NCBI GenBank assembly: GCA_902524945.1
Contig: CABZFF010000001.1
Span: 1 to 64,000 of the forward strand
DNA: 64,000 nt
Reading direction: 5' to 3'
Source: an uncultured Pelagibacteraceae bacterium
GTDB lineage: Bacteria > Pseudomonadota > Alphaproteobacteria > Pelagibacterales > Pelagibacteraceae
The translations under genes were made by a program, and so were the position numbers. Below are positions 4,423-61,005 of this stretch, piece after piece. Position 1 is the stretch's first letter, and the number at the start of each line of letters is the position of its first letter. Under the pieces are notes generated by a model. That model did no database searches. It was not told where the DNA came from and saw only the letters and a list, made by a program, of their open reading frames with translations.

Positions 4423-5699
4423 TATATATTTATTTTAGGCAAGAAGTCAAATGAAGCAGTATCTATTCTAGATGAGTGTTCTCTTCTCATTTTCCAATCA
4501 TTACTTATACCAGCTTGAGCTATACTGATTGCATTTCGTCCATATTTTGCATTGGTAAAATCGATTGCTCTCATTAATGGCTGAGATTTATTCTCTAAAA
4601 TTGGTGCTAATAAATTTAGCTCTTTTTCAGAAGTGTCTCTAAGCTTCGATAAAATAACTCCAGCTTTTTGATAGAAATAACCATATTTATAAATCCTTCC
4701 CAATCCGCTAATTGCAGTTTTTACAAGTTCAATACTGTTATTAGTTGCTACCGGCAATTCAATAGTAATAGAATTTGAATAGTATTTTCTATTTTTATCA
4801 AATGGACTTGTTCTTATAAATATAGTGACAGCTCTCGTAGTTTGTTTATCTGTTCTTATTTTTTCTGCTGCATTTAAACAATGAGTAGTTATAGACTCTT
4901 TTAATTTATCTAAACTCTCAACTTTTTTTCCGAACGATCTTGATACACAACAGCTTTTCCTTTTTGTTTCCTCAGTTTCTAAATCTATACAAGGAATTCC
5001 TCTTAACTCCATTACTGTTTTAGCACCTAAAACATTAGTACTTTTCTTAACCCATGTGTTTGAAATATTTTTTAGTTTATAAGCATTGTCTATTCCGTTT
5101 TTAATGTATAGTTTTGATAACTGTCTTCCAACTCCCCATACATCTGCAATATCAAAATTTTTTAGTATGTTATCAATATTTTCTTTTAGAAATATCACTC
5201 CTGCTTTATTTTTTTTAGCTATATGATTGGCAACTTTACTTAAAGTTTTTGTACTTGAAATTCCTACACTTGTTGGTATTCCCGTCCATTTCAAAACTCT
5301 TTCTCTTATTTGTTTTCCATATTCTTCAACTTGTTCATCTTTGATATGCGATAAATCTAAAAATGCTTCATCTATAGAATAGATTTCAATTTTATCAGTA
5401 AAACCTTTTAAAACTTTCATCACTCGTCTAGAAAGATCTCCATATAATGCATAGTTTGAAGAGAATATCTGAACGTTATTCTTTTTAACTAAATCTTTAA
5501 CTTTAAAATATGGTTCTCCCATTCTTATTCCAAGTTTTTTTGCTTCAGTAGATCTTGATATTACACATCCATCATTATTAGATAGCACTACGACTGGTAT
5601 ATTTTGTATTTTAGGATTAAATAATCTTTCGCAAGAAACATAAAATGAATTACAGTCAATTAATGCAATTTTTTTTCTACTGCTGTTTGTGTATGACAT
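4422..5699 (-). CDS. umuC: Y-family DNA polymerase V subunit UmuC
   Basis: [39 protein letters not shown] motifs. Confidence 0.95.
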
Positions 5700-6072
5700 A
5701 TGTTACTACTCCCCAAATTATTATTTCTGGATTATCTGTTAAATTAATTCGATCTGATGTGTTTTTTGAACCTGATGTTAAGTAGTTGTTGCCCTTACTT
5801 TTAACCAGAGTTTTGACTACAAGTTCTTCGTTGATATTTGCTATTACAGTGGAGAAATTTTTTGGATTTAAACTTTTATCCACTATTAATAGATCGCCGT
5901 CATATATGCCCACATTAGTCATAGATTTACCTTGTACTCTAATGATGAAAGTAGCTGGTGCATTTGTTATGAGATGAGAGTTTAGATCTATATCGTCCTC
6001 AATATAATCTGTTGCCGGAGAAGGAAAACCAGCTCCTACTTTGTGCAAATAATAAGGTATTGTTAACTTCAT
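5677..6072 (-). CDS. umuD: UmuD, LexA/S24-type autoprotease
   Basis: [18 protein letters not shown] cleavage region, [19 protein letters not shown] catalytic Ser region; overlaps umuC. Confidence 0.94.
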
Positions 6073-6076
6073 AAAT

Positions 6077-6091
6077 GTTCTTATTTTGTTC
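6077..6091 (-). promoter_or_regulatory. SOS (LexA) box, alphaproteobacterial type GTTC-N7-GTTC
   Basis: GTTC TTATTTT GTTC on + (GAAC-N7-GAAC on -), 4 bp upstream of the umuD ATG. Confidence 0.8.
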
Positions 6092-6196
6092 TTTATAGCT
6101 GATAAACTGCCTTTCAGTCAACCCCTTTTCAAAAGATTATTAAAGTGGGTCAAATTGCAAATCGAAAAAAAGAGAGAGATTGGCTAATAACAAGAA

Positions 6197-6967
6197 GTGA
6201 TTAAAAAAATATTCTCAATATTATTAGTATTACTTATAACAACAAGTGCTCAAGCAGCGTCTAAGCTAGACTCAATCAAAAAAAGTGGTGAGCTAAGAGT
6301 TGGTACGACGGGAGACTGGGATCCAATGTCAATGAAAGATCCAAAAACAAACAAGTACAAAGGATTTGATATTGATGTGATGAATGAGCTAGCCAAAGAT
6401 TTGGGCGTAAAAGTGAAATTTGTGCCCGCGGAATGGAAAACTATTGTTGCGGGAATAACAGCTGATAGATACGATATATCGACAAGTGTAACCAAAACAC
6501 CAAAAAGAGCAGAAGTAGCTGGGTTCACAGCTACATATTACAAGTATGCAACAGTACCACTAGTTTTAAAAAAGAATTTAAAAAAGTTTTCAACTTGGAA
6601 GTCTTTGAACAGTAGTAATGTAACAATAGCTACAACACTAGGTACATCTCAGGAAGAAAAAGCAAAAGAATTTTTTCCAAAATCAAAACTTCAATCAGTT
6701 GAAGCCCCTGCAAGAGATTTCCAAGAAGTTTTAGCAGGAAGAGCTGACGGAAATATTACAAGTTCAACAGAAGCAAATAAACTAGTTATTAAATATCCTC
6801 AATTAGCTATAGTTCCTGATGGAGGAAAAAATCCAGCATTTTTAGCTATGATGGTTCCAAAAGGAGACAATGTTTGGAATGATTATGTAAGTAATTGGAT
6901 TAAAGAGAAACAGGCATCTGGATTTTTTAAATCTTTACTAGCAAAGTACGATCTAAAAAGCTTATAA
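6197..6967 (+). CDS. ABC transporter periplasmic amino-acid-type substrate-binding protein (SBP_bac_3)
   Basis: Signal peptide, ...[43 protein letters not shown] start. Confidence 0.9.
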
Positions 6968-7008
6968 TTTAAGTTTCAATACCTTCCATTTACAAATATA
7001 GTCCATTC

Positions 7009-7743
7009 GTGAAATTTTTAAAAATAATTTCTATTCTATTTTTACTTCAAGGATGTAGTTCAAACTATGAATGGGGTTGGTATATATTAAGCCCAGATAA
7101 TATAGATGGTTTAACTAATCTAAAATTTTTAATTAGCGGAATTACAACTACTATTTATATTTCAGTAGTTTCAATAATTTTAGCAATGATTATTGGTTTG
7201 ATAGTTGCTCTACCTTCATTATCAAATAATAAATTCTTAACATATTTTAACATAACATATGTAGAAATTGTTAGAGCCATCCCTTTATTAGTTTTAATTC
7301 TTTGGATTTATTATGGCCTTCCAATCATGATTGGATTAAGTTTCTCGCCATTTGTTTCTGGAATAATAGCGTTGACCATTAGTGAGAGTGCGTTTCAAGC
7401 AGAAATTTTTAGAGCTGGAATTAATTCAATTTCAAAAGGTCAACATGAAGTATCTGAGTCATTAGGAATGGATTTCTGGAGAAAGATGAGATTAGTAATT
7501 CTTCCTCAAGCGATTAAAGTTGTGCTACCAGCCATGGGAAACCAATTTGTTTATGTTTTAAAAATGTCCTCTCTAGTATCAATTATAGGGATAGGAGATT
7601 TAACAAGAAAAGCAAATGAGCTGGTCACCACAACTTATAGGCCCTTAGAAATTTATACTTTTTTAATTCTAGAATACCTAGTGCTAATCCTGGTAGTATC
7701 ATATTTTGTAAGAAAATTAGAGAATAAGCTAGAATACAAATAA
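7009..7743 (+). CDS. ABC transporter permease, polar amino acid (HisM/GlnP-like)
   Basis: EFRAGINSISKGQHEVSESLGMDFWRKMRLVILPQAIKVVLPAMGNQFV; GTG start. Confidence 0.9.
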   Translation: MKFLKIISILFLLQGCSSNYEWGWYILSPDNIDGLTNLKFLISGITTTIYISVVSIILAMIIGLIVALPSLSNNKFLTYFNITYVEIVRAIPLLVLILWIYYGLPIMIGLSFSPFVSGIIALTISESAFQAEIFRAGINSISKGQHEVSESLGMDFWRKMRLVILPQAIKVVLPAMGNQFVYVLKMSSLVSIIGIGDLTRKANELVTTTYRPLEIYTFLILEYLVLILVVSYFVRKLENKLEYK

Positions 7744-9090
7744 TTTTCTCAAAGAAATTCTAAATACTCTTTTTAAAAAAAATGGTACGAAAGTTAATAC
7801 AACTAATCCCATCATCCAATTTGTTACTAAAATTGTATAGAAAATATCTTGATATTCACCATTTCTAATATTTATTACATACCATAACGACATAAATGGT
7901 ATTAATGTTAGTCTTAGAATTGTCATGTACAAACTAAAAATTGGTCTTTTGAGTGCCTGGAATAAAGCAGAGGTAATAAAGAAAACTGGATATACGGGCC
8001 CAATTAAAGCTGCTACCTGCAAGTAAAGTGCTCCTCTTCGGATTACTTCTAAATCATTAGTAAAAAAAGAGATTATAATTTCTGAAGTTAGATAAACAAA
8101 TATACCTGCTAATACCATAAATCCTGAACCAAACATCAGAGCTTTTCCATATACTTCTTTTACTCTAAAGTACATTTTTGCCCCAAAATTTTGTCCTGCA
8201 ATTGATAAAACAGCAGTATTTAACCCAATGACTGGTAACAATAAAACTTGTTCTATTCTTACAGCAGTACCATAACCCGCTGTAGCTAATTCTCCAAACT
8301 GACCAACAAAATAGAAAATATTGAATACTCCAAACATTATCATCAACATAGTAAACATTATTGGCACTGATTGTTTGAAGAGCGAGCTTAAGTACTCAAT
8401 TTTTGGTTTGAAACATTCTAGATAAAGGAATTTTTTTAATTTACAGCAATAAACTTTGTTAGCTAAATATATTAAGCCAATACACTGAGAAACTAGCGTA
8501 GCGATAGCTAAACCAGCAATTCCAAATGCTGGTATAAATCCATAACCAAAAATAAATAATGGATTTAAAAAAATATTTAAGAAAAAGGTAAAAATTAAAA
8601 CATTTCTATAACTTTTTGTATCACCTTGGGCATTTAAAGTTCCGTTCAAAGATAATTGAACTAATACAATGATAGCTCCAAAAAAAATAATATCTAAATA
8701 TTCGCGTGTTAAGATTATACTTTCTTCAGTAGAGCCCATAATTCTTAAGAGTTCATCAGAAAAATTTAAGCCAAATAAAGTTACAAAAATTGAAATTACG
8801 ATTGCTAATACTATTGACTGAGCAACGTACATTGAAGCTTTTCTATCTTCTTTGGCTCCAATTGAATTACTGATTAGAGCTGTAGTTCCGGCTCCAATAC
8901 CGACTGCAACAGCGATTGCTATGAAGTATATTGGCCATGATTTTGCAATCGCTGCTAACGCCTCTGGTGAAATTCTGCCTGCAAAATAAGTATCGACTAG
9001 ATTATAAAAAGTTTGAAATAGTGATCCTGTGCTTGCAGGTATGGTCACTTTTCTTAAGAGTTGCCAAATTGAACCTTTAGTCAAATCCAT
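7729..9090 (-). CDS. MATE family efflux transporter
   Basis: 12-TM MatE protein: P...LFQTFYNLVDTYFAGRISPEALAAI. Confidence 0.9.
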   Translation of the reverse strand: MDLTKGSIWQLLRKVTIPASTGSLFQTFYNLVDTYFAGRISPEALAAIAKSWPIYFIAIAVAVGIGAGTTALISNSIGAKEDRKASMYVAQSIVLAIVISIFVTLFGLNFSDELLRIMGSTEESIILTREYLDIIFFGAIIVLVQLSLNGTLNAQGDTKSYRNVLIFTFFLNIFLNPLFIFGYGFIPAFGIAGLAIATLVSQCIGLIYLANKVYCCKLKKFLYLECFKPKIEYLSSLFKQSVPIMFTMLMIMFGVFNIFYFVGQFGELATAGYGTAVRIEQVLLLPVIGLNTAVLSIAGQNFGAKMYFRVKEVYGKALMFGSGFMVLAGIFVYLTSEIIISFFTNDLEVIRRGALYLQVAALIGPVYPVFFITSALFQALKRPIFSLYMTILRLTLIPFMSLWYVINIRNGEYQDIFYTILVTNWMMGLVVLTFVPFFLKRVFRISLRKLFVF

Positions 9091-32375: not shown

Positions 32376-32773
32376 TAAAATACCCTACAAATTATTTCAC
32401 CGCCTACATTATTTTTTCTTGCGTCAACATCGCTCATCACACCTTTTGGTGTTGAAATTATTGCAAGACCTAAACCGTTCATTACTTTAGGTATGCTTGT
32501 TGCTCTAGAATAAACTCTTCTCCCTGGTTTAGAAATTCTTTTAATTTCTTTAATAACGGGATCTCCCTCATAATATTTTAATGTAATTTTTAGTGTGGTT
32601 TTATTTTTTTCACTTTTCTCAATAAAATAATCTTTTATATATCCTTCTTGTTTTAGAATCTCTAAAATATTTTTTCTAAAATTTGAAGATGGTATTTCAA
32701 CAGAATTAAGCAGCCTCATTTGACCGTTTCTAATTCTTGTAAACATATCTCCTATTGGATCTGTAATTGTCAT
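32375..32773 (-). CDS. rpsH: 30S ribosomal protein S8
   Basis: DPIGDMFTRIRNGQ...STPKGVMSDVDARKNNVGGEIICRVF. Confidence 0.97.
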   Translation of the reverse strand: MTITDPIGDMFTRIRNGQMRLLNSVEIPSSNFRKNILEILKQEGYIKDYFIEKSEKNKTTLKITLKYYEGDPVIKEIKRISKPGRRVYSRATSIPKVMNGLGLAIISTPKGVMSDVDARKNNVGGEIICRVF

Positions 32774-57729: not shown

Positions 57730-57815
57730 TGGTGCCCTCGGCCAGACTCGAACTGGCACTCCCAAAAGGGCAAGGATTTTAAGTCCTTTGTGTCTACCAA
57801 TTTCACCACGAGGGC
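57730..57815 (-). tRNA. tRNA-Leu(TAA), CCA encoded
   Basis: GCCCTCGTGGTGAAATTGGTAGACACAAAGGACTTAAAATCCTTGCCCTTTTGGGAGTGCCAGTTCGAGTCTGGCCGAGGGCACCA. Confidence 0.96.
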
Positions 57816-57817
57816 AC
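57775..57817. repeat. 43-bp direct repeat copy 1 (5' half of intact tRNA-Leu; candidate att core)
   Basis: gattttaagtcctttgtgtctaccaatttcaccacgagggcac, identical to 60895-60937. Confidence 0.97.
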
Positions 57818-57896
57818 ATCGTTATTTTTATTGTTATTGTTAATATATTAATACACAAGAGTTTCAAATAAGTAAAAATAATTTATTTTCCGCCTC

Positions 57897-57921
57897 TATC
57901 TTCTAGTTGTCTTCTAGTTTG
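57897..57921. repeat. Left-end motif TATCTTCTAGTTGTCTTCTAGTTTG (tandem TCTTCTAGTT), candidate recombinase arm site
   Basis: TCTTCTAGTT repeated at 11-bp spacing; related copy at 60749-60774. Confidence 0.5.
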
Positions 57922-57948
57922 TTATTAAAAATTGCTAAATTGTTGAAT

Positions 57949-58929
57949 TTATAAATTGGGTTTTTTTTCTCTCCAAATAGATCTCTTTTCCTCAAGATGG
58001 ATATTATCATCTCTTTTTTTTGTATGTCTGATATTTGTTTCAAATGATAAAGAAGAAGGAAGAGAGCGATAATTTTTACTAATAAAATCTAATATCGAAG
58101 AGTAAGATGGATAAAAATCTTCTTGTTTTTTGAAACTTATATGTTTTTTATAATTTTTAGAAAATAAACCATTGCCATCATCAAAAAATCTTTCTGTAGT
58201 TAAACCGTATTTTTCGTAAGGATAATAATTAAGATCATCTTTATTAATATGATTTACCCAGCTAGCGTAAGTCCAATATTCACCAAAAGATCCGTAAATA
58301 TTTGCAGCTTTTATTATCAATTTAATCCAATTTTGCTCAGATTTAAAATGATCTTTAAATTTCAATTTGAGACTTTTTAAGTGCTTTTTTTTAAAAATCA
58401 TATGATGTGAAGTAAATGTTCCTCTTTCATCCTCAACAGGATTAATCCCCAAAACATTGATGATTAAATTTTTCCATGAATTTAAAATATCCTGATTTCC
58501 ATAAGATTTGTCTTGTAGTAAGGCAAACTTTTCTTTTTTTTCATCAAGTATTGGCCAAGAATTAACCGGCAATAAATCGGAGTCCCATACCACAAAAACT
58601 TCATCTAATTGATCTATAGCATCATTAGCTCCAAGTTTAATAATCTGTTGGTATAGCCATCCAGGAGTGTAATTTAGTTTATTTTGAGTAATTTGAGATA
58701 CAATATCATTCTTCGTTAAACCATATTTATTTAAAAAAAAATTATCCTCGTCTAATAAAGTTAAATTTTTAATTTTCCAATAATTTAACTTGTCTTTTAA
58801 AATTTTTATCTCATTTTCTGATGTAATAACATAAATATGTTTTGGCTTGTATTTTTCATAAATACCCTCAAGTACTGATCTTGTGCTCCAAGTCACATGA
58901 TGAACAGGGATAACAAATTGATACATCAA
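57949..58929 (-). CDS. DUF6492-like putative glycosyltransferase
   Basis: TPGWLYQQIIKLGANDAIDQLDEVFVVWDSDLLPVNSW; WxSD-type DxD-like motif. Confidence 0.65.
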   Translation of the reverse strand: MMYQFVIPVHHVTWSTRSVLEGIYEKYKPKHIYVITSENEIKILKDKLNYWKIKNLTLLDEDNFFLNKYGLTKNDIVSQITQNKLNYTPGWLYQQIIKLGANDAIDQLDEVFVVWDSDLLPVNSWPILDEKKEKFALLQDKSYGNQDILNSWKNLIINVLGINPVEDERGTFTSHHMIFKKKHLKSLKLKFKDHFKSEQNWIKLIIKAANIYGSFGEYWTYASWVNHINKDDLNYYPYEKYGLTTERFFDDGNGLFSKNYKKHISFKKQEDFYPSYSSILDFISKNYRSLPSSLSFETNIRHTKKRDDNIHLEEKRSIWREKKPNL

Positions 58930-58930
58930 A

Positions 58931-60703
58931 TTAATTTAAACTTGCTTCTTTAGTGATTTTTTCATCTGTTTTAAAAACAGTAACAGGGTCTTCCAGACCC
59001 GCGTCTGAGCAAAGAGGTTCAACACCTACTCCCTTTCTTGGGTATTTTGAAACTATTAACTTATATTCCTGAATGATATTTTTTAATTCAGTTTTTGTTA
59101 GATCATTAATATATTTACACTTTCCAATGCCAGATGGAACTGGAATAGCTAAATTGCCACCTCTTTTTTGCAAAATTTTATCAAATCCTTGATTCATACA
59201 TTTTTCGTCTAATAAAATGTCATGCCACAAACTTAATTCGTATTCACTAAATAACTTAAAAATTCTATGCAAATCTTTTTCACTAATCCATCCTCTTTTA
59301 TAAGACATAAAAGAACTTAAATTCATTTCAACACTTATTGCATGTCCGTGAAGTAATCCTGCTTTAAGTTCAAAGTTTGCACTCAAACCATGACCAAAAG
59401 CATGATCTCTAATACTATGAACTTCATGTAAATTATCATATTCGCTCTCAACATAACTTTTCAAAGACAATCCAATTATTTTTTTTGATTTTGAGACGAT
59501 TTCATCTTGATGATTGCAATTAATTGTACCAAAATGAGTTTTCATTAAATCACGTCCAGTGTCTTCTAGTAAATTAAAAAGTTCTGCGTCTCTAATTACT
59601 GCCATTTTATGTATTTCAGCAATTCCATGTCGGACCCAAGAAGTTTTTAAACTTTTGAAAAATGAACGATCAGATATATTAAGCACTGGAGCATGAAAAG
59701 AACCTAAAAGATTTTTAAATCCACCAGCATCACAACACGACCTTGGACTTGGTCCACTGTCTATTGCGCTTACAACAGATGTTGACAACATTATATATGG
59801 TGTGCTTCTATGATAAATAGATGCAGCAAAAGCTCCTATATCTCCAATAACCCCTCCTCCAATTATCAGTATAGGTTCGTTTCTATTTACGCCTAATCTT
59901 CTAAAATCTTCAACTATTTTTTCAACATTTTTTATATGCTTATCAACTTCCATGGCCCTATAAATCAGTTTTTCTAAAATAATTTCATTATGATAAAAAT
60001 AATTATCAATTTCTTGTCCATAATTTTCCTCAATATTTTGGTCTACCAAACAAATACATCTTCCAAATGATTTGTAATTATCTCTTAAGAGAGGATTTTT
60101 AATATTTAATGTGTTCTCTTCTACCTTAATTGATGTAAAAGTACTTAAGTTCATGGTTGCTTCTATCTGTTGATAATCATTTGAGCTAACAACGTGACCA
60201 CTTGAATTTCTATAACTAGAAGTTGGATATAAAGCTAAAGGATTTTTTTTCTCATAATCTAAAGTAAGTTGCTTGTAAAATAAATGTTTTGAACTGCTTA
60301 ATAAATTTGAAATCAATTTTGCTTTTCCAAATTTTGTATTGCTAATTTTCGAGGATAGAAATTTTAATTCTTTTGATAAATGCTCATTAAAAGGCAAAAC
60401 GAGACAAGAAAGCTCAAGAATAAACCTTTCGGTAGATAAGTTTAAAGAAGTTTTTAGCACTCTCAAATGAGGCAAAGCCGAGATAGCATCTAATTTCAAG
60501 AATTCATTTGATATTTTGGAGTCATACGGATTTATCTCCGTCAAATTTATTAATAAACTTTCAAAATAATTATTATTTGCAAAATCCTCAATTAAATTTT
60601 GACTATTTAAATAATCTTTATTATTCAAAATAAAGTGCTTAGAAAAATTATCAATTTTTTTAAAAATCATAATCCTAAGTAAAATAATTCTGCATTGAGT
60701 CAA
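58931..60703 (-). CDS. Sugar-phosphate cyclase (3-dehydroquinate synthase superfamily, EEVS-like) with ~180-aa N-terminal extension; start may be 60670
   Basis: ILIIGGGVIGDIGAFAASIYHRSTPYIMLSTSVVSAIDSGPSPRSCCDAGGFKNLLGSFHAP, RHGIAEIHKMAVIRDAELF, DHAFGHGLS, LLHGHAISVEM. Confidence 0.85.
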   Translation of the reverse strand: MTQCRIILLRIMIFKKIDNFSKHFILNNKDYLNSQNLIEDFANNNYFESLLINLTEINPYDSKISNEFLKLDAISALPHLRVLKTSLNLSTERFILELSCLVLPFNEHLSKELKFLSSKISNTKFGKAKLISNLLSSSKHLFYKQLTLDYEKKNPLALYPTSSYRNSSGHVVSSNDYQQIEATMNLSTFTSIKVEENTLNIKNPLLRDNYKSFGRCICLVDQNIEENYGQEIDNYFYHNEIILEKLIYRAMEVDKHIKNVEKIVEDFRRLGVNRNEPILIIGGGVIGDIGAFAASIYHRSTPYIMLSTSVVSAIDSGPSPRSCCDAGGFKNLLGSFHAPVLNISDRSFFKSLKTSWVRHGIAEIHKMAVIRDAELFNLLEDTGRDLMKTHFGTINCNHQDEIVSKSKKIIGLSLKSYVESEYDNLHEVHSIRDHAFGHGLSANFELKAGLLHGHAISVEMNLSSFMSYKRGWISEKDLHRIFKLFSEYELSLWHDILLDEKCMNQGFDKILQKRGGNLAIPVPSGIGKCKYINDLTKTELKNIIQEYKLIVSKYPRKGVGVEPLCSDAGLEDPVTVFKTDEKITKEASLN

Positions 60704-60748
60704 ACTGCACTGTGTCTCATGGTGTGTTTTTGGTATTAAATCTTAAGT

Positions 60749-60774
60749 TATCTTCTAGTCTATCCACTAGTTTG
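60749..60774. repeat. Right-end motif TATCTTCTAGTCTATCCACTAGTTTG, related to left-end 57897-57921
   Basis: Shares TATCTTCTAGT and CTAGTTTG with the left-end motif, same orientation. Confidence 0.5.
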
Positions 60775-60847
60775 CGCAAATTAATTTGCCTTGATTTCTA
60801 ATATTAATTGCATGGATAAATAAAAAATTTAGGATTGATAATGTTTT

Positions 60848-60874
60848 GAGACTACCTGAGACTAACAGAGACTA
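60848..60874. repeat. Three GAGACTA direct repeats at exact 10-bp spacing, beside the right att copy
   Basis: gagactacct gagactaaca gagacta. Confidence 0.8.
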
Positions 60875-60894
60875 TTGAATTTATGAGTCCCTAA

Positions 60895-60937
60895 GATTTT
60901 AAGTCCTTTGTGTCTACCAATTTCACCACGAGGGCAC
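60895..60937 (-). pseudogene. Residual 5' half of tRNA-Leu(TAA) (43-bp direct repeat copy 2; candidate att core)
   Basis: Identical to 57775-57817; T arm, variable arm and 3' acceptor absent. Confidence 0.93.
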
Positions 60938-61005
60938 TTTTATTTTTTTCAATATATATATGACATTTATATTATTATTTAAATCTTATAAAGTATATTT
61001 ATCTA

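Follow-up and report, generated by a model that had tools for sequence, protein, structure and literature searches.

A non-autonomous, integrase-less element at the tRNA-Leu(TAA) gene of a SAR11 bacterium, probably mobilised in trans by a satellite-type integrase

Introduction

How do accessory genes come to lie at a tRNA gene when no integrase lies beside them? The locus that raises this question is in a 64,000-nt stretch of DNA (positions 1 to 64,000 of contig CABZFF010000001.1, from an uncultured Pelagibacteraceae bacterium of the SAR11 group; hereafter the window), where an island of ~3.1 kb with only two genes is bounded by an intact tRNA-Leu(TAA) gene and an orphan copy of the 5′ half of that gene. 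SAR11 bacteria, among the most abundant in the ocean, have tiny, streamlined genomes with few known prophages or integrases, yet they have a large flexible gene pool. The perfect repeat, the empty sites, alternative cargo and tandem arrays in relatives, the fixed geometry of the element ends and the matched, element-specific arms described below point to a non-autonomous, integrase-less mobile element that is most likely moved in trans by a satellite-type integrase at the anticodon loop of tRNA-Leu. If this is true, gene exchange in many species would have a concrete route, in which satellite integrases can move minimal cargo elements whose end signatures can be read, and trans-mobilised cargo would be a plausible route for SAR11; the paired arms would allow such elements to be listed, and their helpers to be predicted, from sequence. 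The locus is also a natural case in which a tRNA gene, present once in its assembly, would have had its 5′ half and the region upstream replaced by an element.

Core repeat and tRNA target

The 43-bp core sequence occurs as two exact copies in the window, on the same strand and at the positions given in a preliminary description of this locus; dinucleotide-preserving shuffles lead us to expect no copies by chance. No third copy was found in the rest of the assembly (G000), which is 86.6% complete. As had also been described, the repeated segment is the 5′ half of the tRNA, from the anticodon loop to the acceptor 5′ end, together with two upstream bases. The features of the target are as follows.

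57730–57815, minus strand: intact tRNA-Leu(TAA), the target gene, as placed by ARAGORN; precise empty sites exist in relatives
57775–57817, unstranded: core repeat, tRNA copy, an exact match; predicted to be the element-derived 5′ half after recombination
57777–57783: the 7-bp anticodon loop TTTTAAG, within the tRNA core copy
60895–60937, unstranded: orphan core repeat, an exact match; predicted to be the displaced original 5′ half of tRNA-Leu
60938–61005, unstranded: native chromosomal sequence, the upstream region of a GT9 gene, found directly after the tRNA in empty sites L058, L060, L062, L063 and L070

Among the orphan copies of relatives, the two bases before TTTTAAG (GA in the window) are variable and there is hardly any variation after them; thus the shared core starts at TTTTAAG (57777). 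These seven nucleotides make up the anticodon loop, and the AAGGA/TCCTT inverted repeat of the stem lies on either side of them, an arrangement that would look like the overlap and core sites expected of a tyrosine integrase. As read from these junctions, the 5′ half and upstream region of the window tRNA-Leu are now supplied by the element. Genome G181 holds a direct trace of such a replacement, in that the 5′ half of its tRNA has A10/U25 and the orphan copies have G10/C25 (in our own numbering), with pairing of the D stem preserved. In this genome (L313/L316, contig G181:C16, tRNA core at 32391), the swap of half a tRNA by the inserted satellite is pair-preserving.

The two genes between the cores account for all of the coding content of the island.

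57949–58929, minus strand: cargo gene 1, a DUF6492 protein of 326 aa (Pfam PF20102, E 9e-11)
58931–60703, minus strand: cargo gene 2, a sugar-phosphate cyclase or 3-dehydroquinate-synthase-like protein of 590 aa (Pfam PF01761 and PF24621)

The top PDB match of cargo gene 2 is 5tpr (E 8e-69), whose entry is named as a 3-dehydroquinate synthase. The Pfam search of the island found no phage genes, and Phage_integrase (PF00589) had no match in the island or in the whole assembly; the Pfam results are thus in line with the earlier account of two accessory genes and no integrase.

Empty sites, alternative cargo and arrays in relatives

The preliminary description proposed site-specific integration at the tRNA and suggested a search of relatives for empty sites and different cargo. 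Both were found, and tandem arrays besides, and the relatives do not uniformly carry the same two genes and tRNA fragment. The core is present in 126 of the 169 same-genus genomes, many of which have two to four copies per contig. At six empty sites (L058, L060, L062, L063, L070 and L188), nothing separates the tRNA from the native sequence upstream of the GT9 gene, and it is this sequence that follows the orphan core in the window. We distinguished at least 101 tRNA junctions among the matches listed, a nonrandom sample in which multi-copy loci were chosen deliberately: 57 have the left end of an element with arms and 26 have one that lacks them; the native state is found in 6 and other arrangements in 12. 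The 26 arm-less junctions retain left-end blocks (types A and B) that correspond to the first ~65 bp of an element, and retention of this block after loss of the arms is expected if it now serves as the upstream region of the tRNA.

The cargo units at tRNA-Leu occur singly or as tandem arrays. Other cargo at the same tRNA includes a trypsin-like protease and, in another case, a polysaccharide lyase with an Atg22/MFS-type transporter. Pilin-like genes with N-terminal methylation motifs also occur there, and form rows near this tRNA in different SAR11 genomes (L046, oriented positions 5492–8578; L274, 6583–9384; L313, 3419–8590). A giant helicase-like protein of 1,532 aa is the only gene of its element (L048, 3098–7696) and matches the candidate defence proteins MkoA/MkoC and PDC-S37. 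At the same tRNA in genome G438 (L274, 99–5476), there are a tyrosine-recombinase-like fragment and a serine resolvase, with a strong match to the candidate defence family PDC-S02 across the tRNA.

Element ends and matched arms

The ends of the window element carry repeats that were not part of the preliminary description (TCTTCTAGT, and GAGACT in three copies).

57818–57898, minus strand: conserved left end beside the tRNA, with a ~65-bp block (type A) common to many relatives
57899–57918, unstranded: left arm pair TCTTCTAGT-TG-TCTTCTAGT, with an 11-bp period and copies at 57899 and 57910; nearly all relatives have a pair at about +84, counted from the core
60751–60771, unstranded: right arm pair TCTTCTAGT-CTA-TCCACTAGT, of which the second copy (60763) is degenerate, with a 12-bp period
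60848–60873, unstranded: three inner right-end GAGACT repeats, starting at 60848, 60858 and 60868, with a ~10-bp period
End signatures of the window element: on the right, TCTTCTAGT...GAGACT in three copies; on the left, TCTTCTAGTTGTCTTCTAGT

The left end is a probable replacement upstream or promoter region of tRNA-Leu. A scan for a sigma-70 consensus beside the tRNA, in the left end, found none, and thus a promoter role for it is something that we infer.

We extracted 51 distinct complete elements of 0.7–8.2 kb. Nearly all of them have a pair of direct repeats of ~8 bp with an 11-bp period, on the left at +83/+84 from the core and on the right at about −145. The sequence of the arm pair is specific to the element: it is TCTTCTAGT in the window (arm type CTTCTAGT), and elsewhere GTGCTGGT, GTCCAAGT, GTACGAG, ATCCGAG and others. 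Left and right arms match each other within an element; indeed, the summed similarity was 857, compared to a maximum of 689 among the permutations (0 of 20,000 reached the observed value). A degenerate second copy on the right, like that of the window, is also found in several other elements. In three elements (L146, L127 and L297) the left and right arm pairs are mismatched; these may be composites, possibly fusions of two elements after loss of the internal core. The GAGACT right-end repeats are common to other cargo elements and to satellites L277, L318, L328 and L331 (two or three copies); among 298 genomes of the order, they were found in the genus of the window only.

A recognisable integrase is present in only one of the 51 elements: a hidden Markov model (HMM) of the satellite integrase family, introduced below, matches L277 alone, and none of the 51 is matched by an HMM built from other integrases of phages and of SAR11.

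Candidate helper satellites

Predicted autonomous satellites that have the same core and arm layout, plus a tyrosine integrase of 515–545 aa, exist in both SAR11 genomes and viral contigs. Two IMG/VR contigs of 15.5–15.8 kb (L042 and L043) have the core with repeat pairs at −148/−137 and +83/+94, the same geometry as that of the islands, and encode a primase, a single-stranded-DNA-binding protein (SSB), a RusA-like protein and an endonuclease VII-like protein. L277 comes from a SAR11 single-cell genome, where it occupies this same tRNA; it encodes a 545-aa integrase with a PF00589 match that is 34% identical to the L042 integrase, and its ends have TTTCTAGT pairs and GAGACT repeats. The 7.7-kb contig L318 (1–7799) has a terminal repeat of 99 bp and is therefore taken to be circular; it encodes a primase, a RusA-like protein and a 545-aa integrase, and its attP has the same core, with ACCCTAGT pairs on both sides and GAGACT repeats. 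No structural gene is evident in L318. In G181, a 10.2-kb satellite stands in tandem with two cargo elements.

The integrase genes of L042, L043, L277 and L318 contain the right-hand arm pair within their 5′ coding region. Five residues (R378, K405, R490, H513 and Y523) are invariant across five aligned integrases, and these catalytic residues, together with Pfam and PHROG matches, establish the integrase identity. Two further loci with the same integrase family (L335 and L339) have as core the 5′ half of tRNA-Cys(GCA), upstream of the integrase, with a CAAGGCAACAC pair on both sides of the core in L339; thus targeting of a 5′ half seems general in this family.

The satellites are rare in genomes. 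The L277-type integrase matches 4 of 397 family genomes, including L277 itself and G488 (fragments only), and the L042-type integrase was not found in 121 relatives or in GTDB contigs; most of the same-genus genomes searched have one weakly scoring Xer-like recombinase of 309–325 aa. A strict GAGACT right end had no match in viral contigs, and when the right end or an attP-like junction was compared with annotated phages, only the core matched.

Proposed mechanism

In the mechanism that we propose, a satellite-borne tyrosine integrase of 515–545 aa would be supplied in trans and would bind the repeat pairs close to the two ends of the element, which are thus putative integrase arm sites. Strands would be exchanged inside the anticodon loop of tRNA-Leu(TAA), a stretch of 7 bp. 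The attP of the element would carry a tRNA 5′ half and its upstream region, and integration would join this 5′ half to the resident 3′ half, by which the tRNA would be rebuilt; the original 5′ half would be pushed to the far end and would persist there as the orphan copy. The action in trans of the satellite integrase family on cargo elements, the route of DNA passage between cells and the continued mobility of the window copy are steps that we infer.

Several points weigh against mobilisation in trans of the window copy. First, no satellite with the exact arm type of the window, CTTCTAGT, was found, and pattern scans of viral contigs for this arm type and for the type-A left end were empty. 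Second, none of the cargo-only elements was seen in an excised attP form. Third, the degenerate second copy of the right arm may mean that the window copy is immobile or stalled. Fourth, since the assembly is 86.6% complete, the portion that is missing could hold a resident integrase. Fifth, an element could also have moved with a neighbouring autonomous element of the same array.

We also offer, tentatively and with slightly less than even confidence, a broader reading in which SAR11 populations share a large pool of ‘addressed’ integrase-less cassettes that all enter at one tRNA gene, the arms being addresses for different satellite integrases; phage satellites would then carry satellites of their own, in an integron-like exchange built on a tRNA anticodon loop.

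Recent transfer and alternative explanations

Comparison of near-identical elements bears directly on whether cargo of this kind moves. Between the L049 and L050 elements (5.0 kb, in G023 and G006), identity is 99.96% over 4,987 bp, compared to 76.4% for the adjacent GT9 genes and 54% on the other flank; L290 and L298 are 99.5% identical over 5,339 bp, beside GT9 genes that are 76.5% identical. In these near-identical integrase-less elements, identity drops at the core on both sides (for L049/L050, from 100% inside to 61.5% and 83.8% outside), which argues for site-specific rather than homologous transfer. Judged from these alignments, integrase-less units have moved recently between species. 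A further near-identical copy of the L049 element (L052, 1–3133) has an internal inversion of ~0.7 kb.

The cargo of the window is found at the same tRNA in G425 and G378, and further along an array in G361. At four-fold sites, its genes are 0.85–0.91 identical to those of G425 and G378, compared to 0.34–0.55 for host genes. The window cargo follows the pattern of recent transfer more weakly than elements of the L049/L050 type do.

These data also bear on the best-surviving alternative, that the island is a dead remnant: an autonomous satellite would have integrated, lost its integrase and replication genes and been immobile since, with its cargo inherited vertically. The degenerate right arm copy of the window would fit such a history, as would the 26 relatives in which only a left-end scar is retained, which indicate that decay after insertion is common. 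However, a vertically inherited remnant does not account for G425 and G378, which share this cargo and its ends at a silent divergence far below that of neighbouring host genes, nor for other integrase-less elements that are 99.5–99.96% identical across species with GT9 genes at ~76%, and there are almost no autonomous copies among the 51 elements. We consider this explanation improbable.

A second alternative is that T7-like pelagiphages of the HTVC105P type move the element by means of an identical core beside their integrase. Both HTVC105P and S35-C6 indeed have 44 bp identical to the core region beside an integrase gene, and HTVC105P infects a SAR11 host, but the flanks of the phage core lack both the repeats and the spacing seen at the island ends, and the core is the only similarity found; we regard this as very unlikely.

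SAR11 bacteria are known for high recombination, and the gene order flanking the island is conserved, so that homologous recombination between flanking core genes might have swapped an otherwise immobile island, as in flexible islands of the replacement type. The fall in identity at the core on both sides of L049/L050 speaks against this explanation, which would also fail to account for tandem arrays that have internal cores and arms that are matched and element-specific; its probability is, if anything, lower still than that of transfer by such phages. Finally, chance or an assembly artefact is hardly credible even though the genomes are drafts (single-cell and metagenome assemblies), because a chance match is not expected and dozens of independent assemblies, as well as viral contigs, show the same structure.

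Comparison with known systems

Use of a 5′ half is less unusual than the preliminary description held. The attP motifs of T7-like cyanophages all match the first half of tRNA-Leu (PMC8776855), and the pelagiphages HTVC105P, HTVC109P and S35-C6 have a core that is identical or nearly so, beside an integrase. The T7-like cyanophages and HTVC105P thus resemble the window element in having the 5′ half of tRNA-Leu as core, which in HTVC105P is identical, but they are autonomous phages, and the flanks of the HTVC105P core do not match the island arms. A prophage of the HTVC105P type would have phage genes and an integrase between its att sites, whereas the island has neither. A degenerate prophage, one of two origins suggested earlier, does not fit the data: the island has no phage genes, its arms are unlike those of such phages and 50 of the 51 elements lack a recognisable integrase. 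The other, a satellite- or tycheposon-like cargo mobilised in trans, fits the data, including the recent transfer of integrase-less units.

Virion-encapsidated integrative mobile elements (VEIMEs) and tycheposons are phage satellites of marine bacteria (PMC11389934). L277, L318, L042, L043 and the G181 element resemble them in being integrated at a tRNA and in having primase/helicase, RusA-like or SSB genes, together with a tyrosine integrase. No capsid or terminase gene was recognised among the genes examined in these five, some of which are in viral contigs, including contigs of IMG/VR. VEIME-like satellites, compared here by description, have replication and hijacking genes (primase, integrase), whereas the window element has attachment ends and cargo only. 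Set against the tycheposon definition as summarised in PMC10872708, the window element has the border tRNA gene, tRNA-Leu(TAA) at its left border, but no tyrosine recombinase in the island or in G000, and its 3.1 kb between cores lies below the size range of 4–200 kb.

Tandem integrase-less islands in Dehalococcoides have been discussed as cis-mobilizable elements (CIMEs; PMC3146451), which have no integration or transfer genes and have att sites at both ends. The window element has this organisation, with two cores and element-specific arms. CIME accretion involves an adjacent autonomous element; there is no autonomous neighbour in the window, but a satellite adjoins cargo in G181. The Dehalococcoides islands are likewise in tandem beside an RNA gene, but they use serine integrases and the 3′ end of ssrA (PMC3146451), whereas the SAR11 elements, of 0.7–8 kb with matched arm pairs, go with a tyrosine integrase and the 5′ half of tRNA-Leu. 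The additive flexible islands at tRNA-Lys of Ca. Methylopumilus are similar in that, in plankton that are likewise streamlined, variable cargo of 330 bp to 42 kb lies between repeated tRNA fragments, but each repeat consists of the final 20 nt of the tRNA, and paired arms or a helper integrase are not reported in the excerpted text (PMC10872708). Miniature inverted-repeat transposable elements (MITEs) and clusters of attC sites lacking integron-integrases (CALINs) also keep cargo or repeats and take the enzyme from a relative (PMC11389934), but their recombination chemistry and sites differ, while the SAR11 elements have a single tRNA target and a putative satellite-type helper. What is new here is the cargo-only element with element-specific, matched arms that mirror satellite ends.

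Another tRNA in SAR11 genomes also has integrase genes beside it: in G486 and G450 (L280 and L281), integrase genes of 314–326 aa lie beside tRNA-Met(CAT), which is probably a separate integration hot spot.

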